Shown here: positions 367 to 46,943 of the stretch, piece by piece
How the letters are laid out: every line of letters begins with the position of its first letter
How positions within the stretch are numbered: position 1 is the first letter of the stretch
Assembly (NCBI GenBank): GCA_019744775.1
Contig: JAIETZ010000003.1
Location: 496,001 to 560,000, forward strand
Origin: Candidatus Obscuribacterales bacterium
Lineage (GTDB): Bacteria; Cyanobacteriota; Vampirovibrionia; Obscuribacterales; Obscuribacteraceae
DNA length: 64,000 nucleotides
Direction of reading: 5' to 3'
Made by a program: the position numbers and the translations under genes
The notes under the pieces: model-generated
The model's database searches: none
What the model was told of the DNA's origin: nothing
The model's input: only the letters and a program-made list of their open reading frames with translations

Positions 367-1818
367 ATGCTCTTTACAAGCTTTCAATATCTGATTTTCT
401 TGCCGGCGGTTGTTCTTTTGTACTGGCTCCTGCCGGGCAAATGGCGCCTGCCGATGCTGCTAATTGCCAGCTGGGGCTTTTACATGACCTGGATGCCCAT
501 CTTCATTTTACTCATAGCGCCGATGACGCTCTTCAACTGGCTGTGGGGCAAGCTGCTGTTCAACGCGACAGACAAGAAGAAGCTAATTTTTGGCGTGGGC
601 GTGGCAGCCAACCTGCTCTGCTTAGGAGTATTTAAGTACGCCAACTTTGCTGTGCAGAGCATGGACTGGTTTATGAAGCTGGTCACACACCACAACCCTG
701 AGTGGGTAGTGAATATCATTTTGCCGTTGGGCATCTCTTTCTTCACCTTTGAATTCATCCATTACCTGTTTGAAATTTATCGTGGCAACAAACCAATTGA
801 CTCTTTTGTCTTGTTTGCATTGTTTGCAGCATTTTTTCCAACACAGATTGCCGGACCAATCAAACGCTATCCTGATTTCCAAGCTCAAATGGAAACAGTC
901 AAGAAAATTGAGCTCAGCTATTTTGACGATGGTGTGCCGCTGATTATTATTGGTTTTGCCAAAAAACTTTTGCTTGCCGACAACTTGTCGGTATTGGTGC
1001 AAATGGGATTGTCCGACCCGTCAGTATATGGCGCGCCGGAATTGTGGGTGTTTGCCTACGCATTTGCTTTTCAAATCTACTTCGATTTCTCGGGCTATAC
1101 CGACATCGCTCGTGGTTCGGCAATGCTCTTTGGCTATCACATTCCAATCAACTTCAACTTGCCGTACATCGCTGCTAACGCCTCTGACTTCTGGCGCCGT
1201 TGGCACATTTCGTTGTCTACCTGGTTGAGAGACTATCTCTTCATTCCTTTGGGTGGATCGCGTGGTGGACGTTGGATGACCAACCGCAACTTGTTTATCA
1301 CGATGGCGCTTGGTGGCTTGTGGCACGGCGCATCCTGGAACTTCGTTGTCTGGGGTGTCTACCACGGACTTCTGCTAATTGTGCATCGCGAGTATGCGGC
1401 GTTTGCTGAAGGCGTTGAGTGGTTGAAGAAGTTTTCGCAGACGAAGATATACAACACGTTGTCTATCGTGTTGACATTCCAAGCCGTTGTTATCGGCTGG
1501 GTCTTTTTCCGCATGACTGACATCGGCGCTGCTTTCAGTATGGTGAAGCGCATGGTGTTCTTGTCGCCGATGTATACGTCGGTTGAGAATCATCACTTCA
1601 TCATCATGAAGCAGGAATTGCCTGTTATCGTGCCGGTGGTGTTGATTATGGTTGCACTGTTGTTGTTGACAAACTTCCCGGTTAGCTTCTGTAATGAGAA
1701 TGGCATCTTCAAGAAAATGCCGGCTCCGCTGAAGGCAGCGTTTTGCTCGGTGCTTATCTTGGCGATGGTGACATTCTTGCCGGATAACTCTAAGCCATTT
1801 ATCTACTTCCAATTCTAG
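367..1818 (+). CDS. MBOAT family O-acyltransferase (AlgI-like), copy 1
   Basis: This 483-residue polytopic protein matches the AlgI/DltB-type membrane-bound O-acyltransferases, which move acyl groups across or at the cytoplasmic membrane onto extracytoplasmic polymers or lipids. Visible family blocks are FPTQIAGPIKRY, FQIYFDFSGYTDIARGSA, the region WHISLSTWLRDYLFIPLGG and LGGLWHGASWNF, whose His320 is the expected catalytic histidine. The C-terminus ends FIYFQF, as in the other two copies. Start: ATG at 367. The SGNH-like gene follows after 10 bp, so the two are probably co-transcribed. In characterised AlgI systems the MBOAT works with a periplasmic SGNH partner, and I infer the same here. 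The acceptor is unknown. Confidence 0.9.
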   Translation: MLFTSFQYLIFLPAVVLLYWLLPGKWRLPMLLIASWGFYMTWMPIFILLIAPMTLFNWLWGKLLFNATDKKKLIFGVGVAANLLCLGVFKYANFAVQSMDWFMKLVTHHNPEWVVNIILPLGISFFTFEFIHYLFEIYRGNKPIDSFVLFALFAAFFPTQIAGPIKRYPDFQAQMETVKKIELSYFDDGVPLIIIGFAKKLLLADNLSVLVQMGLSDPSVYGAPELWVFAYAFAFQIYFDFSGYTDIARGSAMLFGYHIPINFNLPYIAANASDFWRRWHISLSTWLRDYLFIPLGGSRGGRWMTNRNLFITMALGGLWHGASWNFVVWGVYHGLLLIVHREYAAFAEGVEWLKKFSQTKIYNTLSIVLTFQAVVIGWVFFRMTDIGAAFSMVKRMVFLSPMYTSVENHHFIIMKQELPVIVPVVLIMVALLLLTNFPVSFCNENGIFKKMPAPLKAAFCSVLILAMVTFLPDNSKPFIYFQF

Positions 1819-1828
1819 GTATCAGTCG

Positions 1829-3052
1829 ATGCCGGTTTTGACGAGCTTGGCAAAGAAACTAGCAAGCAGCACATTCGTGTGGATCTTGCTGATACTTGCC
1901 GTGCTTGATGTGGGAATTGTTGTCGTGAAGCCGTTGCGTCTGATGAACGCTTCCAACTTGACCGGTATCAACCAGAATCCAGTTGTGGCGAAGTTGCGAG
2001 AATTCTTGGATTCGTCGCGTAATCCGGATGTAGTAGTTGTCGGGTCTTCGTTGACCCTTGTGCCGGCTGTAAGGCTAGACGACCAATTTCATGGCGTGCG
2101 CACGCGCTATGACCACTGGTATGCGCGTAATCACGTGCTCGAGTATGACAAGGCTGATTTCCTTGCACACTTGCTGAGTGAGAAAGCTGGACGCGCCGTC
2201 GAAGTCGCAAACTTGGGCGTGGTGGGCAGCTTGATGTCGGACCACTTCCTTGTCGTGGACAAAGTGCTTGCTGCAGGCAAGAAGCCTCGTCTTATCGTGT
2301 GCATGGTGGCGCCACGTGACTTTATGGACAACACACGCAGCGAAATAGACAAGACACCGGTGTACAGCATCTTGGCTGACTTCACCGCTTTCAATGACTT
2401 GCTGGCGAAGAATCCAGCGCCGGATCGGATATTCGACTTTGTGGTCGGTAATTCGTGGAAGTTTTACAAGATGCGCGTTGATGTCAAAACAATTTTGACT
2501 ACATGGGCATGCCACACATTCGACAGACAAGCCTCGCTTTTCCTTGCTAACAAGTTTGCAGGGCAGAAGGCTAATCCGAATGACGTGTATTTGGCGGGGC
2601 CCATCGCCGGTGTGTTGGACGAGGTGAAGGCGGTGTACGACGTCAAGCCGAACACGTTGATCGACTTGGGTGAGTATAAGAGCGTCTACTTGCCCGTCAA
2701 CAAGAAAATGATTTCAGAACAGACACCGTATTTGGAGAGATTGTTGAAGCGAGCTGGTGAGGAGCAAGTGCCGGTGGTGCTTGTGGAGTCGCCGTTGACT
2801 CGTGAGAATTTAGCACTGCTACCGGCGGGTGAAATCGCGGAGTACCGTCTGCGTCTTCGTCGCGCAGCCGCGACTTACGGCGCTCTACTCATCAATCCGG
2901 TGGGAGATTACACGCTGGCGGATTTCGAAGATTCGTGTCACATGAATGCGCGTGGTGGTGGGAAATTCTACGATGCGCTGGTGAAGTCCATCGTAAGTGA
3001 CCCCGCGTTGGCGCAGAATTTAACGAGTGGGCGGTTGTTGGGGCAGCGATAA
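1829..3052 (+). CDS. membrane-anchored SGNH-fold protein, MBOAT partner, copy 1
   Basis: This 407-residue protein has one N-terminal membrane segment (about residues 14-34) and then a predicted extracytoplasmic domain. SGNH-type landmarks are visible: a block I strand-turn VVVVGSS with Ser74 at the usual nucleophile position, and a block V motif D368-S-C-H371 followed by MNARGGG. A VAPRDFMDN motif sits in the middle and recurs in both paralogues (23275, 45747). The pairing with an upstream MBOAT gene resembles AlgI-AlgJ/AlgX pairs, so a role in O-acyl transfer or acyl-ester handling outside the cell is likely. It may belong near the DUF1574 group, but I cannot confirm that. Substrate unknown. 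Confidence 0.75.
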   Translation: MPVLTSLAKKLASSTFVWILLILAVLDVGIVVVKPLRLMNASNLTGINQNPVVAKLREFLDSSRNPDVVVVGSSLTLVPAVRLDDQFHGVRTRYDHWYARNHVLEYDKADFLAHLLSEKAGRAVEVANLGVVGSLMSDHFLVVDKVLAAGKKPRLIVCMVAPRDFMDNTRSEIDKTPVYSILADFTAFNDLLAKNPAPDRIFDFVVGNSWKFYKMRVDVKTILTTWACHTFDRQASLFLANKFAGQKANPNDVYLAGPIAGVLDEVKAVYDVKPNTLIDLGEYKSVYLPVNKKMISEQTPYLERLLKRAGEEQVPVVLVESPLTRENLALLPAGEIAEYRLRLRRAAATYGALLINPVGDYTLADFEDSCHMNARGGGKFYDALVKSIVSDPALAQNLTSGRLLGQR

Positions 3053-18756: not shown

Positions 18757-18785
18757 TTGACAGTATGCCAAAACTGGCATAATAT
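18757..18785 (+). promoter_or_regulatory. promoter of toxin-antitoxin pair 2 with embedded operator
   Basis: The -35 TTGACA (18757-18762) and -10 TAATAT (18780-18785) are 17 bp apart. A perfect palindrome TATGCCA-AAAC-TGGCATA (18764-18781) fills the spacer and touches the -10 box. That is the expected position for autorepression by the helix-turn-helix antitoxin. The toxin ATG at 18790 falls at about the predicted transcription start, with no ribosome-binding site. Confidence 0.7.
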
Positions 18786-18789
18786 TGAA

Positions 18790-19137
18790 ATGAGAAAGCC
18801 TGCAAAATGGGTCAATGATTCGGTTAAGTCGGAGGTTAGAAGCTGGACTTCTTCTGCGAGAAAAAAGGTTGGAAGACAACTAGCCACGGTTCAAAAAGGT
18901 GAACAGCCTGATCACTATCGCGAAATGCCAAGCATTGGTCTTGGTGTCAGAGAGATCAAAGTAATTGATGATGGCGATCAATACAGGCTTATTTATGTAG
19001 CTAAGTTTGTAGAGGCAGTCTACGTTCTCCATGCAATTACACGAAAGAAAACTCAAAAAACTTCCAAGAACGACATTGATCTAGCTAGAGTTCGATATAT
19101 AGCGCTAATTGAACTAAGAAAAGGACTATTGCCATGA
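18790..19137 (+). CDS. RelE/HigB-type toxin, pair 2
   Basis: From ATG 18790 the product has 115 residues and is strongly basic. The order SVKSEVRSWTSSARKKVGRQL, MPSIGLGVREIKVIDDGDQYRLIYVAKF in pieces, and VYVLHAITRKKTQKTSKNDIDLARVRY in pieces is typical of the Gp49-like/HigB mRNA-interferase family (PF05973), with the characteristic 'LHAFxKKTxKTPxxDIxxAxxR' ending. An in-frame start at 18757 would begin inside the -35 box and is rejected. It overlaps the antitoxin gene by 4 bp (ATGA). Confidence 0.88.
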   Translation: MRKPAKWVNDSVKSEVRSWTSSARKKVGRQLATVQKGEQPDHYREMPSIGLGVREIKVIDDGDQYRLIYVAKFVEAVYVLHAITRKKTQKTSKNDIDLARVRYIALIELRKGLLP

Positions 19138-19514
19138 AAAAAGAAGAATTGCAGATTAGCGGAAGTGGAGATGTATTTATCGATTTGGGTTTTTCAGAGG
19201 AAGAAGCTGCTGAATTAAACATCCATACCTATTTGACTTGGGCAATTCGAGATGCGGTAAAGACAAATGGCAGCAGGCAAGCTGTCATAGCTAAAAAGCT
19301 GGGAATTGATCAACCAAAGGTATCCAAAATACGCAATGGCAACACTGATGAATTTTCTATTGGACGCTTGGCTGGGTTTTTGCTTAACATGGGATATGAC
19401 ATACATATCGGCATAACACCACCGAACGTAGATACTGATTCGCGCGGAAAAATTCGGCTGATTGATCCGAAGAAGCGCCGGAAGCCAACAAAAAAGCACC
19501 ACGCAACAGCCTAA
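19134..19514 (+). CDS. XRE-family antitoxin, pair 2
   Basis: The 126-residue protein has an XRE-type helix-turn-helix (about residues 47-75: GSRQAVIAKKLGIDQPKVSKI with RNGNTDEFSIGRLAGFL). The IDQPKVSKIRNG recognition region is typical of HigA/HTH_37 antitoxins partnered with Gp49-like toxins. It starts within the toxin's stop codon (ATGA), giving translational coupling. It probably binds the TATGCCA palindrome at 18764. The lysine-rich tail (KKRRKPTKKHH) is unusual and may add DNA affinity. Confidence 0.88.
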   Translation: MKKEELQISGSGDVFIDLGFSEEEAAELNIHTYLTWAIRDAVKTNGSRQAVIAKKLGIDQPKVSKIRNGNTDEFSIGRLAGFLLNMGYDIHIGITPPNVDTDSRGKIRLIDPKKRRKPTKKHHATA

Positions 19515-21800: not shown

Positions 21801-23267
21801 ATGCTTTTCAACAGCTTTTCCTATCTGTTGTTTTTGCCGATTGTGGTCGCGCTCTTTTGGCTGTGCCCACAGCGCTTTCGGCCGTTCTTGCTGTTGATTG
21901 CGAGCTATGTCTTCTACATGACTTGGAAGCCAATTTACGGTCTGCTCATTTTGGGGCTGACTGTAATGAACTTCGCTTTCGGGTTCTTCATCAATAAAAG
22001 TTCGAAGTATCGCAAGCTCTTGCTTGGTTTTGCCGTTGCAGCCAATTTATTGGTGCTCGCATATTACAAGTACGCATACTTTGCTATTGAAGTTGCTAAT
22101 GACCTCTTAAAACCGTTAGGCAAAAGTCTGCCAGACCTCACAATGCAAATTCTTTTGCCACTGGGGATCTCATTTTTCGTATTTGAATTCATCCATTACG
22201 TGACTGATGTCTACAAGGGCAGTCAACCGGTTAAATCATTTGTTGACTTCGCGTTGTTTGCAAGTTTCTTCCCGACGCAGATAGCCGGACCGATCAAACG
22301 CTATCAAGATTTCATCCCACAGCTTTCCGCAAAACTGAAATTCGATTGGGCAAACGTAGACGAAGGCATCAACTTAATTGTCTTTGGTTTGTTCAAGAAA
22401 GTAATTTTTGCGGACAACTTATCTGCAGTGGTACAGAGCGCATTTCAAACTCCGCAGTTGCTTTCTAGTGTCGATGCCTGGATGGCTGTCTACGCATTTG
22501 CTTTCCAGATTTACTTCGACTTCTCCGGTTACACGGATATCGCTCGTGGCTCCGCCCAGCTATTCGGCTACAAAGTACCGCTCAACTTCAACCTGCCATA
22601 TCTAGCTTCGTCAATTGCCGACTTCTGGCATCGCTGGCATATTTCATTGTCCACGTGGTTGCGCGACTATCTCTTCATTCCTTTAGGTGGCAGCCGCTGC
22701 TCTAAGATTTTCAACTACCGCAACTTATTCATTACGATGGTTCTTGGTGGTCTCTGGCACGGTGCGGCAATGCACTTTGTGGCTTGGGGTGCATATCAGG
22801 GCATTATGCTTATTGCTCATAAAGAATTCCAAAGTATGATGAAAAACTTTGCTTGGTGGCAGCAAGTTGTTAAATCAAAAGCGTTTCACATCTTCTCTAT
22901 CGTATTGACCTTCCATGTAGTGTGTATCGGCTGGGTATTTTTTCGCGCCGACAACATGAGTATCGCAATGGAAATCATCAAGAGACTTTTCTTCCTTGGT
23001 CAGTATCCTGCCGGTGTTACAGCATGGAGTTTGTCGCTGCCGAGTGTGCATGACCCGGTTGTATTCTTGCTCTTGCCGGTAATTCTTGTTGTGCTGTTTA
23101 TTGGACAACTTATCGCCGGTAAACTTGCATCACTTGGTCTTGCAAGTCCGTATAAGGCGCCGACATTGCCGCGCGGTTGGCAAGCCGTTTATTTGACGGT
23201 GATGATTTGTTTGTTGATAGCATTTTCGCCGGATGGTTCGCCAAAGTTTATTTATTTCCAGTTCTAA
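21801..23267 (+). CDS. MBOAT family O-acyltransferase (AlgI-like), copy 2
   Basis: The 488-residue polytopic protein is paralogous to the genes at 367 and 44217, with the same blocks (FPTQIAGPIKRYQDF, FQIYFDFSGYTDIARGSA, WHISLSTWLRDYLFIPLGG, LGGLWHGAAMHF) and the catalytic histidine again at residue 320. The end FSPDGSPKFIYFQF is also shared. ATG 21801 follows GGGG. This copy opens a five-gene operon of lipid enzymes (to 28812), so its acceptor may be a lipid-linked molecule made by that operon rather than a polysaccharide. That is inference. Confidence 0.9.
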   Translation: MLFNSFSYLLFLPIVVALFWLCPQRFRPFLLLIASYVFYMTWKPIYGLLILGLTVMNFAFGFFINKSSKYRKLLLGFAVAANLLVLAYYKYAYFAIEVANDLLKPLGKSLPDLTMQILLPLGISFFVFEFIHYVTDVYKGSQPVKSFVDFALFASFFPTQIAGPIKRYQDFIPQLSAKLKFDWANVDEGINLIVFGLFKKVIFADNLSAVVQSAFQTPQLLSSVDAWMAVYAFAFQIYFDFSGYTDIARGSAQLFGYKVPLNFNLPYLASSIADFWHRWHISLSTWLRDYLFIPLGGSRCSKIFNYRNLFITMVLGGLWHGAAMHFVAWGAYQGIMLIAHKEFQSMMKNFAWWQQVVKSKAFHIFSIVLTFHVVCIGWVFFRADNMSIAMEIIKRLFFLGQYPAGVTAWSLSLPSVHDPVVFLLLPVILVVLFIGQLIAGKLASLGLASPYKAPTLPRGWQAVYLTVMICLLIAFSPDGSPKFIYFQF

Positions 23268-23274
23268 GGACGCA

Positions 23275-24525
23275 ATGACCGAAAACGAGACGAGCGCTAA
23301 ATCAAAAATTACGATTCGCACAAGCCAATTGGTATGGGCGCTCGGGCTTTTTGTCGTCGCAAACATTGCGTTGCTTAAGTGGCAGCCTCTGTCAAAAGTT
23401 GATCCTGAAAGTTTGCCTGCTGCTCACACATGGATATGGTGGGCAGCAAAAGAGCTGGCTCAGCAACAGCAAGGTCCCGACATTGCATTGATGGGTTCAT
23501 CCTTTATGATGCATCCGCTTGCACTTAGAGATGCGGACTACCTGAAGAAAGACTTCGACTTCGTTCACCATCACTACTCTTCCTATTTGGAAGATTCGCT
23601 CAAGCAGCATCTCGGCGTTCGCAAAGCCCAGTGCTTCAACTTCGCCATGCCCGGCGGCATGATTTCCGATCATTACATGATTACGCGTACTCTTTTAAGC
23701 GGTAGCAAAAAGCCGCGCGTCATAGTCATTGGTGCAGGTGTTCGTGACTTCATGGATAAGCACGTAAGCTGTGCCGCAGCCACGCGCCCATTTAAATATC
23801 TTCAGCGCTATACAGAAATCGATGATCTCGTTGGAATCGCCATGCCGCAAATCTGGCAACAAGCCGATTACTGGCAAGGTCGCGGTATCTACCTCTGGGG
23901 CAAGAAAATGGACTTCCAGGTTGTTGCTTGTGACTGGGCAAGAAAAGTTTTCAACCCGTTGTTGGACAAATACTGCGTTAAGAGTCCACTTAATGACATA
24001 GATCAAACTCGCAATGCTCCATCAAATATGCGCATGGAAGCGGAAGAAGGTCTCTACATCGTCAAGGCAGATGCTCCTTATAAATTTGACGACAACACGC
24101 GCGAATACATGAGCCGTTACGGCAACGGCAATGACAAATTATTGGAAAACCAAAAGCTCTGGCTGGATAAACTCTTGCAATTAGCAAGAGATCAAAACAT
24201 CGAAGTTCTCCTCGTAAGCATGCCCGCCACTCCAGCCAATATGCAATTGATGCCGCCAGGCGCATACAACAAATTCATCACCGCCATGCGTGAAGCCAGC
24301 CAAAAATGGAATGTGCAACTAGTCGACTTGAATGGTGGCACAGGCTTCGGAGACAAGTTTGACAAGTTGGATTTCTCGGACACTGCTCACATGAACGGTC
24401 GCGGTGGTAAGAAGCTGATTGATGCTATTAATGTTGCAATTTGTCGCGATAAGCGACTGGCAAATGCGCTAAACCAGGATAATAACGCTAATATCCAACT
24501 GGCAGGCAGCAACAAGACGCATTAA
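23275..24525 (+). CDS. membrane-anchored SGNH-fold protein, MBOAT partner, copy 2
   Basis: From ATG 23275 the protein has 416 residues, with a short polar tail, one membrane helix (about residues 19-36, LVWALGLFVVANIALL) and an outer domain. The nucleophile turn is IALMGSS with Ser76, the middle motif is VRDFMDK, and block V is D369-T-A-H372 in LDFSDTAHMNGRGGKK. It begins 7 bp after the MBOAT stop and abuts the next gene directly (stop 24525, ATG 24526). By analogy with AlgJ/AlgX-type partners it may transfer or remove the acyl group outside the membrane. Confidence 0.78.
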   Translation: MTENETSAKSKITIRTSQLVWALGLFVVANIALLKWQPLSKVDPESLPAAHTWIWWAAKELAQQQQGPDIALMGSSFMMHPLALRDADYLKKDFDFVHHHYSSYLEDSLKQHLGVRKAQCFNFAMPGGMISDHYMITRTLLSGSKKPRVIVIGAGVRDFMDKHVSCAAATRPFKYLQRYTEIDDLVGIAMPQIWQQADYWQGRGIYLWGKKMDFQVVACDWARKVFNPLLDKYCVKSPLNDIDQTRNAPSNMRMEAEEGLYIVKADAPYKFDDNTREYMSRYGNGNDKLLENQKLWLDKLLQLARDQNIEVLLVSMPATPANMQLMPPGAYNKFITAMREASQKWNVQLVDLNGGTGFGDKFDKLDFSDTAHMNGRGGKKLIDAINVAICRDKRLANALNQDNNANIQLAGSNKTH

Positions 24526-25146
24526 ATGGGCATTTACGGTATAAAACCCTGGTTTCGCCAACAACTGCAACCGCTTATCAAACTTCTTTGGAACGTGCAT
24601 CCCGACGTTCTGACGTGGGCAGCGCTATTCTTGTCATGTGTCGCCGGCGATCTTTTCTACTTGTCTGATGATGAACCCTGGTATGCGTTAGTGGCTGCGG
24701 TATTATTATTTATCCGATTGGCATTGAATGCTTTGGATGGACTGCTCGCGCAACAAACCGGCAAAGCAAGAGTTGCAGGTGAAGTTCTCAATGAGATGAC
24801 CGATCGTTTTGCTGATCTGGCAATCTTTGCCGGTCTGATACTTTGCCCTCTTACAGACAAGACAATTGGCGTGGCTGCACTAATTCTAATTTTGCTAGTC
24901 AGTTACACAGGCATTCTAGGCAAAGCAGTTGGAGCAGAACGTGTTTATTCCGGCATCCTGGGAAAAGCCGACCGCATGATTTATCTTATGATTGCTTGTA
25001 TCGCATATGATATTGAGCCGCATTTGCATATTGGTGGTTATACGATTTACACAGTCCTGATGCTTATCTTTATACCGATGGCAATAATAACAATTGCACA
25101 GCGTTTGCAACGCATACTCTTCTTGGTTAAGGAGAGGAAGGCTTGA
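24526..25146 (+). CDS. CDP-alcohol phosphatidyltransferase family protein, variant motif
   Basis: The 206-residue membrane protein has about six hydrophobic segments and a CDP-alcohol phosphotransferase motif at residues 68-93: N68-x2-D71-G72-x2-A75-Q76-x8-G85-x3-N89-x3-D93. The canonical form is DxxDGxxAR-x8-GxxxDxxxD, so the first and third aspartates are Asn and the Arg is Gln. E. coli YnbA has a comparable variant as I remember it, and like ynbA this gene is followed by a CdsA-like gene. The reaction would join a CDP-activated lipid or alcohol to a second alcohol, releasing CMP. Substrates are unknown. Confidence 0.82.
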   Translation: MGIYGIKPWFRQQLQPLIKLLWNVHPDVLTWAALFLSCVAGDLFYLSDDEPWYALVAAVLLFIRLALNALDGLLAQQTGKARVAGEVLNEMTDRFADLAIFAGLILCPLTDKTIGVAALILILLVSYTGILGKAVGAERVYSGILGKADRMIYLMIACIAYDIEPHLHIGGYTIYTVLMLIFIPMAIITIAQRLQRILFLVKERKA

Positions 25147-26096
25147 CTCTTGATCCAATTGTGCAGCGCACGCTTATCATTGTTGCCGGTTTCTTTATTG
25201 CAGCAGGACTAGGTGTATTTGGAGCTGAACTCAAAGGTGGAAAGCCGGATGAAAATTTGCGCAAGCGTTATTTCGCTTGGTACATGATTGCGCCGGTTGT
25301 CCTTATCCCTTCATACTTTGGTGGATTGCCATTTGCTGTTTTGGTTTGCACGTTAGCATTGTGGTGCCTGCGTGAATTCTTTGGTGTCGTCAACTTGTCT
25401 GACACACCGGCTTTTCGTTGGGTGGGACGACTAGGCGGCATTGCACTTATTCTTGCCGCATTTCTTGAGACAACACCGAATTTGATTAGCCTTGAAGCAT
25501 TGGGCTTTGGACGACCATTTTTCTTTTATGTGCTGCCTGTATTTATCATCATGCTTGTCTTGAGCACGCCCGTATTATTACAACGCTACGAAGGCATGTT
25601 AGCCAAAGAAGCATTCACGATATTCGGCATTCTCTACTTCGGATGGTTCTTGGGACACTTGGTATTTCTCCGTAATTTGAACGATGGTTTTGGATGCATC
25701 ATTTACTTGACTATGTCTGTTGCCCTCAATGATGTCATGGCATATACCGTGGGACGCATTTGTGGCAAGCACAAACTAGCACCGCTCATCAGCCCGAAAA
25801 AGACAGTGGAAGGCGCCATCGGCGGTCTTGTTGGTTCGTTAATAGCAGCCGCAATTTTCGGCTACGCCGTGCCGACACTCAACGCTTGGCAGTTGGTCGG
25901 TGCCGCCGTCTCGATAAGCATTGCCGCACCTCTTGGAGATCTAATTATTTCAGTCATAAAACGTGATATGTCCGTAAAGGATTCTGGTAACCTTATTCCA
26001 GGGCACGGTGGGTTATTAGATAGATGCGACAGCATCATCTTTGCTACTCCGGTATTCTATTATTACGTCTTGTTCATCGAGGTTTTTTCTCACTAG
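25143..26096 (+). CDS. CdsA-like phosphatidate cytidylyltransferase (YnbB-like)
   Basis: The 317-residue, roughly eight-helix membrane protein carries the full CDP-diacylglycerol synthase signature near its C-terminus: SVIKRDMSVKDSGNLIPGHGG, read in two overlapping parts (SVIKRDMSVKDSGN; IPGHGGLLDRCDS). Such enzymes make a CDP-activated lipid from CTP and a phosphatidate. It starts with TTG at 25143, overlapping the previous stop by 4 bp, behind AAGGAGAGGAAGG. Pairing with the variant phosphotransferase recalls ynbA-ynbB of E. coli. It is likely a specialised second CdsA rather than the housekeeping one. Confidence 0.9.
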   Translation: MTLDPIVQRTLIIVAGFFIAAGLGVFGAELKGGKPDENLRKRYFAWYMIAPVVLIPSYFGGLPFAVLVCTLALWCLREFFGVVNLSDTPAFRWVGRLGGIALILAAFLETTPNLISLEALGFGRPFFFYVLPVFIIMLVLSTPVLLQRYEGMLAKEAFTIFGILYFGWFLGHLVFLRNLNDGFGCIIYLTMSVALNDVMAYTVGRICGKHKLAPLISPKKTVEGAIGGLVGSLIAAAIFGYAVPTLNAWQLVGAAVSISIAAPLGDLIISVIKRDMSVKDSGNLIPGHGGLLDRCDSIIFATPVFYYYVLFIEVFSH

Positions 26097-26121
26097 TTTT
26101 TGGCAATAGCCCGGAGCTTGT

Positions 26122-28812
26122 ATGACTAAATTCAGTAACCTGCAGGAACTCTTTTTAGCTGCCAGTGCGCGTTGGAAAAAGAAACCTGCGTTTCGTCACA
26201 TCATCAACGGCAGAGTTCGTGAATACAAGTACGAAGACCTGACGAAGCTTTCTTATCGTGGAGCGCAGAATTTAGCAGCACGTGGGCTGAAAGCCGGCGA
26301 TTACATTTCTATCTGGTCGGAGAATTGCCCCGAGTGGTTGATTGCCGCGTTGTCCGCATTTCGTCTTGGACTGGTGTTGGTGCCGCTCGACGCACGCTCA
26401 AAAATAAGCGAAGTCCTGCCCGTAATCGAAAGGGCAAAACCAAAGCTTGTGCTCTGCGGGCGTAAACAATTTGTGCGAATCTCGGACAAATTACCTGCTG
26501 AGCAAGTAGCTGTTTTGGAAAGTGTGCTTGCTGAACACAATGAGTCTATTACACCTAAACTTCATACTTCATTGCCGTCAGACCCAGCACTGATTGTTTT
26601 TACGTCAGGAACATCAGGTGCATCTAAGGGTGTAGTGCTCACTCACAACAATATTGTTTCAAACATCAAATCAGTCTGCGCAAGCTATGACGTGAGCGAT
26701 GAAGATAGATTGTTGTCTATACTCCCGTTGTCCCACATGCTCGAATTTACAGGCGGTTGCTTGGGACCACTCAACAATGGCTCGACTATTATTTACAGCC
26801 AGTTGAAAGGACCAGCCCATCTCAAGGCGCTGCTTAAGACGGAAAAGATATCCGTGCTTATGGGAACACCGATGGTGTTTCAAATGTTGCTCAATGCAAT
26901 TGAAGCCGAAATTGAAAAACAACCGCGTTCCAAACAAATTGCAATACAGGCAGCTAAGCAAATAATCAAAGTCAGACCAAAAATGGCGTCTGTGCTTTTC
27001 AAGGAAATTCACAAGGAGCTCGGTGGCAAAATCAAATTCTGGTTGTCCGGTGGAGCGCCGACACCGCCTGAAGTTATCACTGGGCTTGGCTCTTACGGCA
27101 TCAATTTGCTGACCGGCTACGGTCTAACAGAAGCGGCTCCAATTGTTGCTGCCAATCGCACTTACAGTAAAAAATCCGATACAGTCGGACTACCTATCAA
27201 TGGTGTTGAAGTAAGAATTCACGAACCAAACGCCGAAGGTATTGGCGAAATAATTGTGCGTGGTCCAAACGTCATGTCGCACTATTTCGAAAATCCGGAA
27301 GAGACGGACAAAGCTTTACGCAATGGTTGGTTGCACACGGGCGACAGCGGCTTCATCGACAAAGATGGACATTTGCACATTACCGGTCGATTGAAATTCA
27401 TGATCGTCACCGCTGGTGGCTACAATGTCTATCCGGAAGAAATTGAAGATGCGCTCCTCAAGAGCCCACTTATTAAAGAAGCTTGTGTCTTTGGACGCAA
27501 AGGGCCACAGGGCGAAAAACCATTTGCGGTTGTTGTGATCAACGACAACGCGAAAGCTTGGCCGGATGGTGAAGAGAAGGTGAGACAAGCTATCACCCAG
27601 TGCATGTCTGAGCTTGCTGATTACAAAGCCTTGGCTGGATTCCAAATTTGGGATCATGATCTGCCGCGTACTGCTACGACAAAAGTGAAGCGCGGCGAAG
27701 TGCAGAGGCTATTTGAACTCAATCAGCAAAAGGATGAATCAGGTGTTCCTGAACAACCAATTGATTGGGATGAAGACGGACTTATCGTTTGCCGTCAAAT
27801 AGGCGATGTAATGGATCCAAACGTATTGCGTGCCATAAGTCCATCGGACTCTCGTGAGTTTCTACCGACAGCCAATCTCGAAGGGGATTTTGGACTAGAC
27901 TCATTTGCTCGTCTTGAACTTGCATGCCGTCTTGAAGAGAAATTCTCCATCAATCTGCCTGAAGACTCTCTGCAAGATGTGCAGACCGTCGACGATCTTG
28001 TCGTCCTGGTGAAGAGCGTCAAAGGACACCAAGCTGCCGGCGAAACAAGTAGCGACCCAACTGCAGAAGTCGAGCCGCTTGTACCAAGTGAGCCGTGGCC
28101 GAGAAAATGGGTGGAAGTCAAAAACCTTCCATTTAGAGACGAGCCAATCCTCGCTCATGCTCGCCGTGCAATGGGCATTGGTCTCAAAGCATTCGTTAAA
28201 ATCTACAACCAGCACGAAACAGAAGGCGCTGACCGCTTATTGTTAGATCCGCCATTCATCGTCGCGGCAAATCACACCAGCCACTATGACACTTTGGCTG
28301 TGTTGATGAGCTTCCCATCAAGCCATCTAAGATATGTTCACCCGGTTGCCGCCGCCGATTACTTCTTCGGCAATCAATTCATGGCGACTTTCTCATCGTA
28401 TGTAATCAATGCTGTACCATTCGAAAGATTTGGCAACTTCGAAGAAAGCCTGAAAGAATGCGAAGCCTTGCTGAAGCAAGGACGCATTTTGGTTATCTTC
28501 CCCGAAGGCACACGCTCCATGACTGGCGAACTAGGCGTCTTCAAACCAGGCGCTGCCAAACTGGCAATTGCAACAGGAGCGCCAATTGTCCCTGCCTACA
28601 TTCACGGTGCTTATGATGTCCTGCCAAAAGGCAGCCACATGATCCACCCAGCACACGTCAAAGTCTCCTTCGGTTTGCCCATCTACCCCGAAGCCGGTCG
28701 CGCCGACTTACGCGCCAGCCAAGAATTGACTAAGCGCGTGCGTCAAGCCATAGCTGACTTAGCTGAAGGTGTCAAAGCCGAAGAAGCTGAACGGTCAGCT
28801 GCTAAGGCGTGA
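26122..28812 (+). CDS. trimodular acyl-AMP ligase - ACP - PlsC acyltransferase
   Basis: One 896-residue protein contains three enzymes. Residues about 10-540 are an adenylate-forming fatty acyl ligase: P-loop VFTSGTSGASKGVVLTH starting at residue 159, LLTGYGLTEAAP, and GWLHTGDSGFID. Residues about 560-635 are an acyl carrier protein with the attachment site Ser594 in DFGLDSFARLEL. Residues about 690-880 are a PlsC domain with H718-x4-D723 (NHTSHYD) and FPEGTRS (793-799). The protein could activate a fatty acid, load it on its own ACP and transfer it to a glycerol-phosphate-type acceptor. E. coli Aas has the opposite domain order and no ACP inside. It is the last gene of the operon that starts at 21801. 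Confidence 0.9.
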   Translation: MTKFSNLQELFLAASARWKKKPAFRHIINGRVREYKYEDLTKLSYRGAQNLAARGLKAGDYISIWSENCPEWLIAALSAFRLGLVLVPLDARSKISEVLPVIERAKPKLVLCGRKQFVRISDKLPAEQVAVLESVLAEHNESITPKLHTSLPSDPALIVFTSGTSGASKGVVLTHNNIVSNIKSVCASYDVSDEDRLLSILPLSHMLEFTGGCLGPLNNGSTIIYSQLKGPAHLKALLKTEKISVLMGTPMVFQMLLNAIEAEIEKQPRSKQIAIQAAKQIIKVRPKMASVLFKEIHKELGGKIKFWLSGGAPTPPEVITGLGSYGINLLTGYGLTEAAPIVAANRTYSKKSDTVGLPINGVEVRIHEPNAEGIGEIIVRGPNVMSHYFENPEETDKALRNGWLHTGDSGFIDKDGHLHITGRLKFMIVTAGGYNVYPEEIEDALLKSPLIKEACVFGRKGPQGEKPFAVVVINDNAKAWPDGEEKVRQAITQCMSELADYKALAGFQIWDHDLPRTATTKVKRGEVQRLFELNQQKDESGVPEQPIDWDEDGLIVCRQIGDVMDPNVLRAISPSDSREFLPTANLEGDFGLDSFARLELACRLEEKFSINLPEDSLQDVQTVDDLVVLVKSVKGHQAAGETSSDPTAEVEPLVPSEPWPRKWVEVKNLPFRDEPILAHARRAMGIGLKAFVKIYNQHETEGADRLLLDPPFIVAANHTSHYDTLAVLMSFPSSHLRYVHPVAAADYFFGNQFMATFSSYVINAVPFERFGNFEESLKECEALLKQGRILVIFPEGTRSMTGELGVFKPGAAKLAIATGAPIVPAYIHGAYDVLPKGSHMIHPAHVKVSFGLPIYPEAGRADLRASQELTKRVRQAIADLAEGVKAEEAERSAAKA

Positions 28813-30438: not shown

Positions 30439-31656
30439 TTAGCTTTTGCCATTTAGTTTTTTCGCAAGCGTACTGACCAGTGATTGAATTTCGTGTTGTA
30501 GGCGTTCACTTATCGAGTGGCGGACAGTGTGTGGGTCTTTGATGTAATCGTCGACGTGTTTTCCCATGTCTATTGGATGGGCGATTTTGACGGAGACACT
30601 TCTAGTCGCGATCTGCTTGGGGCGTTGGATTTTGTAGATTTCCCGTTCTAGCTTTAGGACAACTTCGGCAAGTCTGTCGGCGTTGGGGTCTTTGGTGTAG
30701 TAGTGTGGATGCCAACTTGTTAGTTGGGCAACTTCTTTCAATGCTTTGAGATCTAATTCGAGATCTTTCCTTTTGACTGGATCCTTTTCGTTGCTGATCG
30801 ACTTTCGAAGCTCAGCTTCAATTTGCCAGGCTTTGTCGATTGTGGCTCCGTCGTCACGTACTTTTACTTCGGGGTGCTTGTCCAACACCTCAGCTAGAAT
30901 GTCGTGTTCGGCGGTGATGATTTCTTCTCGCAGCTCTTTGGCTGTCTCGGCATTTTCACCGACTTTGTATAGGCGCTCTTCGCTCTGAAGCATGGCTTTT
31001 TGAAGTTCGAGTACTCTATCCGGAAGTGTTGCGCCGGATTCGGGCAGTATGGACATCGCCGTTTCCATTTTGGCGATGCGCTTTTCTAATTCGGGACCAA
31101 TGGATTGATCGTAATGGTATTTAATTGCCATCGGCACGATAAACGCTGTCCATTCCGGATCAGTTTTTCTCTTTTCGATAATTGCCTTCAGGCATATATC
31201 AACCGCGCCATGGTGGAAAGGTTGAATCTTTTCATTCAGATAGTAAATTTCGCCTTCTGGAAAAATGACGAGAACGTCCTCACCTTGTTTGACGACGTCC
31301 TGGGCATAAGTGACTGCTGCCGAATCGCGAGCACCGCGCTTGACTGAAAATACGCCTAAGCGCGGTAGAACGAATTTGGGAATGCCGAATGCCTCGTCAA
31401 ATGCTTCTCTATTGCACATGGTGATGAAGCGCTTGTTTGCCCGGCGCGATAGCTCGAAGCATACTTGCGGATCGGCTTCATCGGCATGGTTGGAGGTCAG
31501 GATGACTCCTGAGCCCGGTGGGATTCTGTGGAAGTGCAATAAGTCTTGCTCAGCCAGCTGTATCTTATTCTTGAGGAATAGATTGAAGCGAGCTAGTTCC
31601 TGGACGATCTTAATAGCCCAAGTTGCTGGTTTGGCAGGTATGAAGTCTTTTGACAT
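30439..31656 (-). CDS. PlsC-like 1-acylglycerol-3-phosphate acyltransferase
   Basis: The 405-residue protein has an acyltransferase domain (about residues 20-200) with the catalytic NHADEAD (H-x4-D), a LPRLGVFSVKRG block and FPEGEIYYLNE in place of the usual FPEGTRS. The remaining 200 residues are charged and helical, with coiled-coil character (RVLELQKAMLQSEERLYKV; REEIITAEHDILAEVLDK), an extension not found in standard PlsC. It may acylate lysophosphatidate or another lysolipid. No signal peptide is present. Confidence 0.82.
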   Translation of the reverse strand: MSKDFIPAKPATWAIKIVQELARFNLFLKNKIQLAEQDLLHFHRIPPGSGVILTSNHADEADPQVCFELSRRANKRFITMCNREAFDEAFGIPKFVLPRLGVFSVKRGARDSAAVTYAQDVVKQGEDVLVIFPEGEIYYLNEKIQPFHHGAVDICLKAIIEKRKTDPEWTAFIVPMAIKYHYDQSIGPELEKRIAKMETAMSILPESGATLPDRVLELQKAMLQSEERLYKVGENAETAKELREEIITAEHDILAEVLDKHPEVKVRDDGATIDKAWQIEAELRKSISNEKDPVKRKDLELDLKALKEVAQLTSWHPHYYTKDPNADRLAEVVLKLEREIYKIQRPKQIATRSVSVKIAHPIDMGKHVDDYIKDPHTVRHSISERLQHEIQSLVSTLAKKLNGKS

Positions 31657-44216: not shown

Positions 44217-45668
44217 ATGCTTTTTAACTCTATTCAGTACGCAATTTTTCTGCCCATCGTTGTGGCGCTCTTCTGGGTAATTCCCCAGCGCTTCCGCGTG
44301 TACTTACTGCTTGCTGCCAGCTACATCTTCTACATGAGCTGGAGACCGATTTACATATTCCTGATCATCGGGCTAACGGTCTTCAACTATTTTCTTGGTC
44401 TGGCAATTGCCAAATCAGAAACCCGCAAGAAGTTGTGGCTGACGATAAGCGTGGTCGGCAACTTAGCGACGCTGGCATTCTACAAATACGCTTTCTTCCT
44501 GGACGACACTATTGCGTCTGCGCTGAAACCATTTGGCATCACCTTCCCGAAAATTCCTTTCGACATTATTTTGCCGTTGGGAATTTCATTCTTTGTATTC
44601 GAATTCATTCATTACGTAGTTGATGTCTATCGCGGCGGACAACCTGTTAGGTCATTTCCGGGCTTTGCACTGTTCGCTTCCTTCTTTCCGACACAAATTG
44701 CCGGACCAATTAAGCGTTATCAAGATTTTGTGCCGCAGTTTCTTGCTGTTCCCAAATTCTGTATGTCGCATTTTGATGATGGTATTGCACTCATATTGCT
44801 TGGGCTATTCAAGAAAGTGCTGATCGCAGATAACCTGACATTTTTTGTGCAAGGTGGTTTTGCGCATCCAAAGCTGTTTACGGGGATGGATCTCTGGATA
44901 TTTGCTTACGCATTTGCTTTCCAAATTTACTTCGACTTCTCCGGCTACACGGATGTTGCTCGTGGCTCGGCAGCGCTATTCGGCTACAAGGTTCCAATCA
45001 ACTTCAACCTGCCGTACCTGGCCAACAACATCGCCAACTTCTGGCATCGCTGGCATATTTCACTTTCAACCTGGTTGCGTGATTACCTCTACATTCCTTT
45101 GGGTGGTTCGCGTTGTGGGCGTTGGCTCAACTATCGCAATTTGTTTTTGACGATGGCGCTTGGTGGTCTCTGGCACGGAGCAGCCATGCATTTCCTTCTC
45201 TGGGGTGTTTTTCATGGAGTCGCGCTTGTTGTGCACAAAGAATTTCAACGTCTTACAGAAGGCTTCAAGGCTTTCACGGCGTTTCTTGCCAGCAAGCCGG
45301 GTAATCTTCTGTCCATGCTTTTCACTTTCCATGTTGTTTGCATCGGCTGGGTGTTGTTCCGTGCTGAAACAACTGAAATTGCAATGACGATGTTGCAGAA
45401 GATGTTCTTCTTTGAAGCAGCAACTAAGGGTGCTCAGGCGTTCGCGTTGACGCTGACTTCAATCAACTACCCGCTAATCTACCCGTCAATTTTCTTGCTG
45501 TTGCCGATATTGGCAGTGACGCATATCGTGATGGGTTATCTGAACAAGACTCAGTGGGTTGCGAAAACACCGATACCGCTGAAGGTAGCCTATTGCGTCG
45601 TCATGATGTTTTTGGTTCTTGTGTTTTCTCCGGATAAATCACCACGATTCATTTACTTCCAGTTTTAA
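44217..45668 (+). CDS. MBOAT family O-acyltransferase (AlgI-like), copy 3
   Basis: The 483-residue polytopic protein has the same blocks as the copies at 367 and 21801: FPTQIAGPIKRYQDFVPQF, FQIYFDFSGYTDVARGSA, WHISLSTWLRDYLYIPLGG and LGGLWHGAAMHFLLWG, with the catalytic His again at residue 320 and the C-terminus FSPDKSPRFIYFQF. It reads closer to copy 2 than to copy 1 in the LWHGAAMHF region. The SGNH-like partner begins 78 bp downstream, with a copy of the dispersed repeat between them. Confidence 0.9.
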   Translation: MLFNSIQYAIFLPIVVALFWVIPQRFRVYLLLAASYIFYMSWRPIYIFLIIGLTVFNYFLGLAIAKSETRKKLWLTISVVGNLATLAFYKYAFFLDDTIASALKPFGITFPKIPFDIILPLGISFFVFEFIHYVVDVYRGGQPVRSFPGFALFASFFPTQIAGPIKRYQDFVPQFLAVPKFCMSHFDDGIALILLGLFKKVLIADNLTFFVQGGFAHPKLFTGMDLWIFAYAFAFQIYFDFSGYTDVARGSAALFGYKVPINFNLPYLANNIANFWHRWHISLSTWLRDYLYIPLGGSRCGRWLNYRNLFLTMALGGLWHGAAMHFLLWGVFHGVALVVHKEFQRLTEGFKAFTAFLASKPGNLLSMLFTFHVVCIGWVLFRAETTEIAMTMLQKMFFFEAATKGAQAFALTLTSINYPLIYPSIFLLLPILAVTHIVMGYLNKTQWVAKTPIPLKVAYCVVMMFLVLVFSPDKSPRFIYFQF

Positions 45669-45673
45669 CGATT

Positions 45674-45721
45674 GCGGGCGCATGCAATGCGCCCCTACGA
45701 AGGACCAGGATTCACCCACGT
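45674..45721 (-). repeat. extended dispersed repeat, copy 7 (core 45676-45698)
   Basis: An intact GGGCGCAT core in inverted orientation with the same ACGTGGG...CCTGGTCC flank as the copy at 35868. It lies inside the third MBOAT/SGNH cassette and would be part of any joint transcript as a hairpin. Confidence 0.8.
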
Positions 45722-45746
45722 TGACCGAAGGACCAAATAGCCCGCG

Positions 45747-46943
45747 ATGACAGAATCGAGAGAGCCGAATAAGAAGACAGTGAGCAGAACCAAAGTTCTG
45801 AGCTATGTCGTAATTGGAATTGCGCTTCTTGCACTTCTCGATGTCGGTGCGCGCCTAACTTGGAATTACTGGCCAATCGATCACTACAATTCGCCAAATC
45901 GTAGTTGGGTGTGGTGGGCGATAAAAGATTTTCGCCGGCAGAAGCAGGCCCCCGATGTCGTCTTGCTGGGTTCTTCATTGATGATGAATGCCCTGCACGG
46001 TGGTGATTCGACTCACTACAACAGACCGGAAAATGCTGCCTTCCACCACCGCTCTTTTTATTTTGAAGAGTTGATGAGGAAGAAAGATCAAGACATTCGT
46101 ACATTTGCTTTTGCAATTGGCGGGCAAATGGCGTCTGATGCTTACGTTATCTGTTCGCGATTACTCACCGGCAACATGAAACCGAAAACCATTGTCTACG
46201 GCATTGCTCCGCGTGACTTTATGGACAATACACTTGCGAGCCCTGCAAGTACGGAGACGTTCCGCTATGTGGGACGTATTAGAGACTTGTCCGACGAGGA
46301 ATGGGATGCACGCAAAGGATTTTGGGAGCGCGTTGAGCATGTGCTTACAAAGGCAAGCTTCCTCTATCAAAAGCGTCTTGATTTTGTATATTTGCAAAAC
46401 GAAGGCATGAAACAGTTGCTGACCAGCCTTGGTATCAAGATGGATCTCAATCATGCACCGTTTGAATTGAGAGGAATTGCTCTTGTGCAATTACCTGAAG
46501 ATACCGGCCCGTCTGATCTTTGCTTCACGCCTTACGATAAGAAGCAAGCGAAGTACGCAGATAATCTGGATCAGTACCGCTATCGCTATCTGCCGTTCAA
46601 ACCAAAAGTCTATTACACGCAATTGAGTTACCTTGAGAAGCTTATGAAGTTTGCGCACGACAACGGCATTGAGATGGTTCTTGTGAATATGCCCATTACG
46701 AAAGACAACATGGACATCATGCCGGCCAACTTCTACAACATATATAAGAAGGACGTGCTCGCGCTGGTTGGAAAATACGACGCGCAGATTATTGACCTGA
46801 ATGATCAGAAGAGATTTCCCAAAGAGTATTTCGAAGACTCCGTTCACTTGAATGGACTTGGTGCTGTAAATTTCTTTGAAGTACTTGCCGATAAGTTTTC
46901 GAGCAAATCTGCGATCGCCCATACTAAGAACACGAACATATAG
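45747..46943 (+). CDS. membrane-anchored SGNH-fold protein, MBOAT partner, copy 3
   Basis: The 398-residue protein has an N-terminal membrane segment (about residues 13-30, VLSYVVIGIALLALLDVG) and an outer SGNH-like domain. Landmarks are the nucleophile turn VVLLGSS with Ser77, IAPRDFMDN in the middle, and block V D364-S-V-H367 in YFEDSVHLNGLG. The loop SWVWWAIKDFRRQKQAPD before the first strand matches SWIWWAAKELAQQQQGPD-type sequence in copy 2, so copies 2 and 3 are closest. It is the likely extracytoplasmic partner of the MBOAT at 44217. Confidence 0.78.
   Translation: MTESREPNKKTVSRTKVLSYVVIGIALLALLDVGARLTWNYWPIDHYNSPNRSWVWWAIKDFRRQKQAPDVVLLGSSLMMNALHGGDSTHYNRPENAAFHHRSFYFEELMRKKDQDIRTFAFAIGGQMASDAYVICSRLLTGNMKPKTIVYGIAPRDFMDNTLASPASTETFRYVGRIRDLSDEEWDARKGFWERVEHVLTKASFLYQKRLDFVYLQNEGMKQLLTSLGIKMDLNHAPFELRGIALVQLPEDTGPSDLCFTPYDKKQAKYADNLDQYRYRYLPFKPKVYYTQLSYLEKLMKFAHDNGIEMVLVNMPITKDNMDIMPANFYNIYKKDVLALVGKYDAQIIDLNDQKRFPKEYFEDSVHLNGLGAVNFFEVLADKFSSKSAIAHTKNTNI

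Follow-up and report, generated by a model that had tools for sequence, protein, structure and literature searches.

Gene content of the locus

We analyzed a 64,000-nt stretch of the genome of Candidatus Obscuribacterales bacterium, an uncultured relative of the cyanobacteria (assembly GCA_019744775.1, contig JAIETZ010000003.1, positions 496,001–560,000 of the forward strand), called the window below. This 4.1 Mb genome is numbered G000, so that the window is G000:C3:496001-560000, and the other G numbers denote the genomes with which it was compared, most of which are fragmented assemblies. At positions 21801–28812, the window contains five open reading frames (ORFs), A to E, that encode an MBOAT protein (A), an SGNH-like protein (B), a cytidine diphosphate (CDP)-alcohol transferase (C), a CdsA-like protein (D), and a fusion of an acyl ligase, an acyl carrier protein (ACP), and PlsC (E). 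Judged from their sequences, these genes are two modules of different standing: a predicted general acylation pair, A-B, and a predicted lipid cassette, C-D-E. A first-pass annotation, made from the DNA alone, had described a contiguous five-gene run, and the ORF list bears this out: the genes share one direction and are almost gapless, with 7 nt between A and B, 0 nt between B and C, a 4-nt overlap of C and D, and 25 nt between D and E (calculated from the ORF coordinates). The gene identities proposed there also held, given Pfam matches for A, C, D, and E, an SGNH fold for B in an AlphaFold2 (AF2) model, and catalytic motifs that are all present, those of C in a variant form (Table 1).

Table 1. 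Genes A to E and the domains of E, with positions in the window.
Feature	Position	Strand	Basis
Gene A, MBOAT O-acyltransferase (AlgI/DltB/PatA kind)	21801..23267	+	PF03062, E 4.8e-30; GLWHG; C-terminal FIYFQF
Gene B, SGNH-fold acyltransferase (AlgJ/PatB/DltD kind), N-terminal helix	23275..24525	+	AF2 fold; GSS and DTAH motifs
Gene C, YnbA-type CDP-alcohol phosphotransferase, variant site	24526..25146	+	PF01066, barely above cut-off; fold of phosphatidylinositol phosphate (PIP) synthase
Gene D, CdsA/YnbB-type phosphatidate cytidylyltransferase	25143..26096	+	PF01148, E 5.7e-62; CdsA signature (27 aa)
Gene E, acyl-AMP ligase-ACP-PlsC fusion, 896 aa	26122..28812	+	PF00501, PF13193, PF00550, PF01553
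E, AMP-binding ligase domain, aa 16-521	26167..27684	+	Nearest solved structures are fatty-acyl-CoA ligases
E, carrier (PP-binding) domain, aa 580-627	27859..28002	+	Pfam; Ser of GLDSF
E, PlsC acyltransferase domain, aa 701-827	28222..28602	+	Pfam; NHTSHYD and FPEGTRS

Genes C and D and the ynbA-ynbB-plsC cassette

Gene C is 27% identical to Escherichia coli YnbA over 205 residues (E 6e-23), and D, which carries the CdsA signature SxxKR....KD...GHGG..DR.D, is 41% identical to E. coli YnbB over 153 aa. Genes of the C, D, and PlsC types are clustered in Burkholderia, Sinorhizobium, Shinella, Citrobacter, Obscuribacterales, other Cyanobacteriota, and gut Gastranaerophilales-type genomes. As in ynbABCD of E. 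coli and the related Pseudomonadota cassettes that contain PlsC, a transferase with the motif N..DG...G...N...D lies near a CdsA paralogue, usually together with PlsC; unlike in that type, PlsC is here fused behind an acyl ligase and an ACP, and an MBOAT-SGNH pair precedes the cassette. By these sequence likenesses, C-D-E is an elaborated form of the widespread ynbA-ynbB(-plsC) cassette, in agreement with the phospholipid route that the first-pass annotation had seen in the last three genes. Its remark that such a set was not recognizable was too strong for the core, since C-D is of the YnbA/YnbB type and the cassette with PlsC occurs in many bacteria. The YnbC hydrolase/methyltransferase and the YnbD phosphatase, which E. 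coli and several Pseudomonadota possess, were found neither among the five ORFs nor in the scanned neighbors; the Sinorhizobium B11 cassette also has no annotated YnbC or YnbD adjacent, and we regard both as optional for the cassette. Our literature search found no product assigned to YnbA or the cassette that includes PlsC, and nothing relevant on ynbA, ynbC, or ynbD; YnbB is reported to be dispensable for phosphoglyceride-linked enterobacterial common antigen (PMC8609368). The set had also been described as separate from the housekeeping lipid genes, and the genome does encode a second CdsA (C6:294-1163) and a second CDP-alcohol transferase (C1:340927); C and D were therefore rejected as the sole housekeeping enzymes. 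A phosphatidylserine synthase feeding phosphatidylethanolamine synthesis was likewise rejected as the role of C, because the genome has no phosphatidylserine decarboxylase. The nearest named records of C are Obscuribacterales/Obscuribacter metagenome-assembled genomes, at 93, 62, and 55% identity, and one record at 72% that is labeled Chloroflexi.

In canonical CDP-alcohol transferases, D1–D3 coordinate the metal, and D4 acts as the base (PMC4634129). The canonical site, D1xxD2G...G2xxxD3xxxD4, reads N68..D71 G72...G85...N89...D93 in C, which means that the metal ligands D1 and D3 are replaced by Asn68 and Asn89, while D2 (Asp71) and the catalytic D4 (Asp93) are kept. The same Asn/Asn site is found in YnbA and in the Burkholderia, Sinorhizobium, Shinella, and Citrobacter members, and an archaeal relative from Natrinema has Asp/Asp at D1/D3. 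The nearest solved relatives of C, both by fold (template-modeling [TM] score 0.72) and by profile, are the PIP synthases. In one of these, MtPIPS, S132, R155, and R195 bind inositol phosphate through its phosphate, with K135 possibly touching the ring (PMC4634129, PMC6506517). These residues align with S126, R150, R193, and G129 of C, all four of which are invariant in a 13-row alignment; E. coli YnbA deviates at the position of S126. The inositol-phosphate synthase Ino1 was detected in none of the 50 family genomes (the control was positive in 6), a result that concerns synthesis and leaves inositol uptake possible. Because the phosphate pocket is kept, K135 is replaced by an invariant Gly, and Ino1 is absent, the predicted acceptor of C is a phosphorylated alcohol, probably other than inositol phosphate.

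The motif N..DG...G...N...D of C was intact at all 31 loci with a CdsA gene near and was lost at 10 of the 12 loci without one (Fisher p 3e-8, a value that ignores kinship among these non-independent loci). Here, "near" means inside the fetched stretch, mostly 1.5 kb on each side and wider for exceptions. The 31 loci comprise 17 from Obscuribacterales, 11 from gut Gastranaerophilales-type genomes (family f5), and 3 from other Cyanobacteriota (G351, G259, and G302), the latter two names being inferred from kinship labels; the comparison omits G037 and G055, in which the gene is near a contig end, and G008 and weaker class-level matches, which align poorly. The losses (G018, G013, G030, G065:C13, G028:C43, G035:C314, G352, G250, G147, and G292) appear to represent no fewer than two or three events, and R150 and R193 persist even in the motif-decayed copies. 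As the motif decayed only where CdsA was not near, we read C as depending on CDP-diacylglycerol that D would supply.

Motif-less C homologues without CdsA nearby (L046:9813-10430, L048:9770-10414, L047:4370-5011, L049:1378-1983, and L113:1981-2589; also L193 and L196-L198) are conserved and fall into two separate groups, and in three genomes they lie a few kb from the MBOAT-SGNH pair. They are apparent pseudoenzymes.

Gene E and its association with C and D

In addition to the carrier and PlsC motifs listed in Table 1, gene E contains the P-loop TSGTSGASK and the motif YGLTE. Among solved structures, its ligase domain matched a fatty-acyl ligase (8weu, E 2e-52) and, much lower, DltA (3l8c, E 3e-22). 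An orthologue of E was found in six genomes: it adjoins C or lies within several kb of it in G000, G010, G023, G017, and G018, and in G001 it comes after the end of the CdsA gene, on a contig separate from the rest. In seven Gastranaerophilales-type genomes (G220, G183, G196, G208, G084, G214, and G246), a protein of 1158–1197 aa with PlsC and AMP-ligase parts lies beside CdsA, PlsC, and C, and all three of those scanned with Pfam had the order major facilitator superfamily (MFS)-PlsC-AMP-ligase. In our tree, the deep root of which is weak, the ligase of this protein forms a clade apart from E and from the other ligase-ACP-PlsC fusions. Two architectures thus join the same activities to C-D, which supports the view that the ligase/PlsC activities and C-D would serve one pathway.

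In Aas and LplT-Aas, the acyl-ACP:phospholipid O-acyltransferase, a single chain likewise unites an acyl ligase with PlsC, and the MFS-PlsC-ligase form is the one found beside C-D in the Gastranaerophilales-type genomes. In contrast, E has the order ligase-ACP-PlsC, its own carrier domain, and no MFS domain, and it scored 190 bits against the NCBIfam Aas-type model NF006386, below the cut-off of 1221.

Two further observations concern related genes. Runs of an MFS-PlsC-acyl-ligase, a CDP-alcohol transferase, CdsA, and PlsC occur at L184:5137-11691 and, in similar form, at L185-L189 and L199; some also include a second transferase gene or one of the Methyltransf_20 family, which recalls the methyltransferase portion of YnbC. 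The same family has a further clade of ligase-ACP-PlsC fusions (L118-L125), which are not located near CdsA or CDP-alcohol transferase genes, and we rejected the identity of E with the other fusions of the family because they fall into separate clades.

The MBOAT-SGNH pair A-B

The terminal motif FIYFQF of A was present in 20 of the 20 MBOATs examined, and GLWHG, the motif of the catalytic His, in 19. In PatA, the tyrosine of the C-terminal FXYXXF motif carries the acyl group (PMC12148441). Gene B, the start of which is the ATG at 23275, had only sub-threshold GDSL/DUF1574 matches in Pfam, and a PDB sequence search with it gave no useful match. Its AF2 model (pLDDT 84) matched SGNH folds, including PatB (8tlb) and DltD (3bma), with TM scores of ∼0.3 relative to the whole of B, which are low because B exceeds these matches in size. 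Residues G73, S75, D368, and H371 (numbered without the initiator Met) were invariant in 20 homologues. On the basis of these motifs and folds, A-B is a genuine MBOAT-SGNH pair with a predicted O-acyltransferase function. It resembles PatA/PatB, AlgI/AlgJ, and DltB/DltD in GLWHG, the C-terminal FXYXXF, and an SGNH fold with Ser and Asp/His, and differs from them in adjoining phospholipid genes rather than polysaccharide genes.

Such pairs are numerous: we found 13 SGNH homologues in this genome and 3–14 per genome across the 50 family genomes, and the window alone contains three MBOAT-SGNH pairs (A-B, 367-3052, and 44217-46943), indicating a large paralogous expansion; the pair most often stands without the cassette. 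Contiguous A-E was confined to the genus, namely G000, G001 (across two contigs), and G002 (running off the contig end), with looser or partial forms in four other genera. A-B adjoins C in G000-G002 and G018; a leucine-rich repeat (LRR) gene lies between them in G023, and a tryptophanyl-tRNA synthetase (TrpRS) gene and others in G010. In the form given, the claim of a complete dedicated five-gene set was not supported: the contiguous run is restricted to one genus, A-B is multi-copy, and the gene order was largely not conserved in relatives outside the genus. The orthologous A-B pair also occupies this position on the chromosome in G019, G021, and G008, where no C-D-E accompanies it; the position was recognized by an epimerase-like and/or a MutS-like neighbor, judged from length and first residues.

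The run is flanked upstream by a divergent epimerase gene and downstream by a convergent rhomboid-TPR gene (ORF list and Pfam). A promoter and terminator scan gave no signal above that of shuffled sequence, and the G+C content of A-E (0.45–0.49, against 0.48 for the window) gives no sign either way on a recent island. Elsewhere in the window, 18757-19514 contains two overlapping 126-aa ORFs that resemble, by eye only, a HigB/HigA-type toxin-antitoxin pair, and a further PlsC-family protein of 405 aa with a long C-terminal extension is encoded near mutS (30439-31656, minus strand).

Proposed pathway

From the families to which A-E belong, the following steps may be proposed. E would activate a free fatty acid as acyl-AMP and load it onto its own ACP domain, which would pass the acyl group to the PlsC domain, and a lysophosphatidate-type acceptor would become phosphatidate. 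D would turn the phosphatidate into CDP-diacylglycerol, and C would transfer the phosphatidyl group to a phosphorylated alcohol (probably one other than inositol phosphate) to yield phosphatidyl-X-phosphate. A-B would use the C-terminal tyrosine to move an acyl group across the membrane onto an acceptor in the envelope. We favor, with modest confidence, the reading that C-D-E forms a self-contained pathway to a single special phospholipid and that A-B is a general pair, probably co-expressed with it, for which the head group is one possible acceptor. Three results speak for C-D-E as one pathway: the conservation of the C motif together with CdsA, the differently built MFS-PlsC-ligase protein beside the same genes in Gastranaerophilales-type genomes, and the location of housekeeping-type paralogues elsewhere in the genome. 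Within this reading, A-B is probably co-transcribed with C-D-E in this clade; its membership in the C-D-E pathway is weakly supported, and the head group of the C-D-E product as its acceptor is possible. A bolder version, in which the Asn/Asn transferase and the ligase-ACP-PlsC protein would make a new phospholipid class, a phosphatidyl-(non-inositol) alcohol phosphate, with MBOAT-SGNH acylating its head group outside the cytoplasm, seems to us unlikely as a whole.

Several observations weigh against the favored reading. E. coli YnbB cannot substitute for CdsA, and its overproduction raises the glycolipid MPIase (PMC6362211), so that making CDP-diacylglycerol for a phospholipid is not the sole reading of D. 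With Asn at the metal ligands D1 and D3, the chemistry of C could differ from that of canonical members. G017:C43 and G208:C1 retain the C motif although CdsA is not nearby, and G018 has A-B-C-E without D, with a decayed C motif. In the same family, some ligase-ACP-PlsC fusions lie apart from C-D, and similar near-full-length matches are carried by Fusobacteria and Rubrobacter plasmids; both findings speak against an exclusive tie of E to C-D. Finally, A-B occurs without C-D-E at the same place in the three genomes named above.

Alternative explanations

This last observation, together with the many copies of MBOAT-SGNH pairs and the separation of the two modules by an LRR gene in G023 or by TrpRS and others in G010, would also fit an explanation in which A-B, like other MBOAT-SGNH pairs, O-acylates exopolysaccharide or peptidoglycan and the C-D-E lipid genes simply ended up downstream. 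Nevertheless, the B/C junction is 0 nt in G000 and is also close in G018, the C of which is only 48% identical, and in most genomes with an E orthologue, A-B is adjacent or near. We consider this explanation plausible but somewhat doubtful; our assessments of it and of the favored reading overlap, the C-D-E part being common to both.

Four activities of the Dlt type (ligase, carrier, MBOAT, and SGNH) lie within one run, and a relay is therefore conceivable in which the ligase and ACP of E, like DltA/DltC, would feed MBOAT and SGNH, placing an acyl group onto the outer head group of the PlsC-D-C lipid. DltB, whose acyl group is supplied by a carrier protein (PMC12148441), is the best solved-structure match of A (6bug/8jem, E 6.5e-28), and LTA_dltB its best NCBIfam match. 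However, the LTA_dltB score of 189 bits is far under the cut-off of 375, the ligase of E is nearest to fatty-acyl ligases, many genomes have the orthologous MBOAT-SGNH pair without an E orthologue, and the Gastranaerophilales-type acyl-ligase cassettes have no MBOAT-SGNH within the stretches examined. Such a relay is improbable in our view.

It is very unlikely that D makes CDP-diacylglycerol for a pyrophosphate-linked glycolipid like MPIase, with sugars O-acetylated by A-B: the effect of YnbB overproduction would fit, as would the acetylation of sugars by AlgI/PatA-type pairs (PMC12148441), but a ynbB knockout left the MPIase level of E. coli unchanged (PMC6362211), the run has no glycosyltransferase, and C belongs to the CDP-alcohol transferases and has a phosphate pocket. 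An ordinary PIP synthase as C, making a phosphatidylinositol-type lipid, would agree with the top structural match, the conserved pocket, and the best NCBIfam matches (archaetidylinositol phosphate [AIP] and PIP synthases), but with scores of 100 (cut-off 180) and 62 (cut-off 170), Asn at D1 and D3, Gly in place of K135, and no Ino1, we judge it highly unlikely.

Significance of the cassette

The ynbA-ynbB-plsC cassette is spread over distant bacteria, with no product in the papers found. The present locus and its relatives offer two clues: the cassette is joined to a fatty-acid activator in two architectures, and its transferase keeps the phosphate pocket and not the inositol contact. Together, these clues make the product testable, a phosphatidyl-X-phosphate from recycled or exogenous fatty acids being expected under the C-D-E route favored here. 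If MBOAT-SGNH does act on the C-D-E product, a mechanism that acylates polymers would be extended to a lipid substrate.

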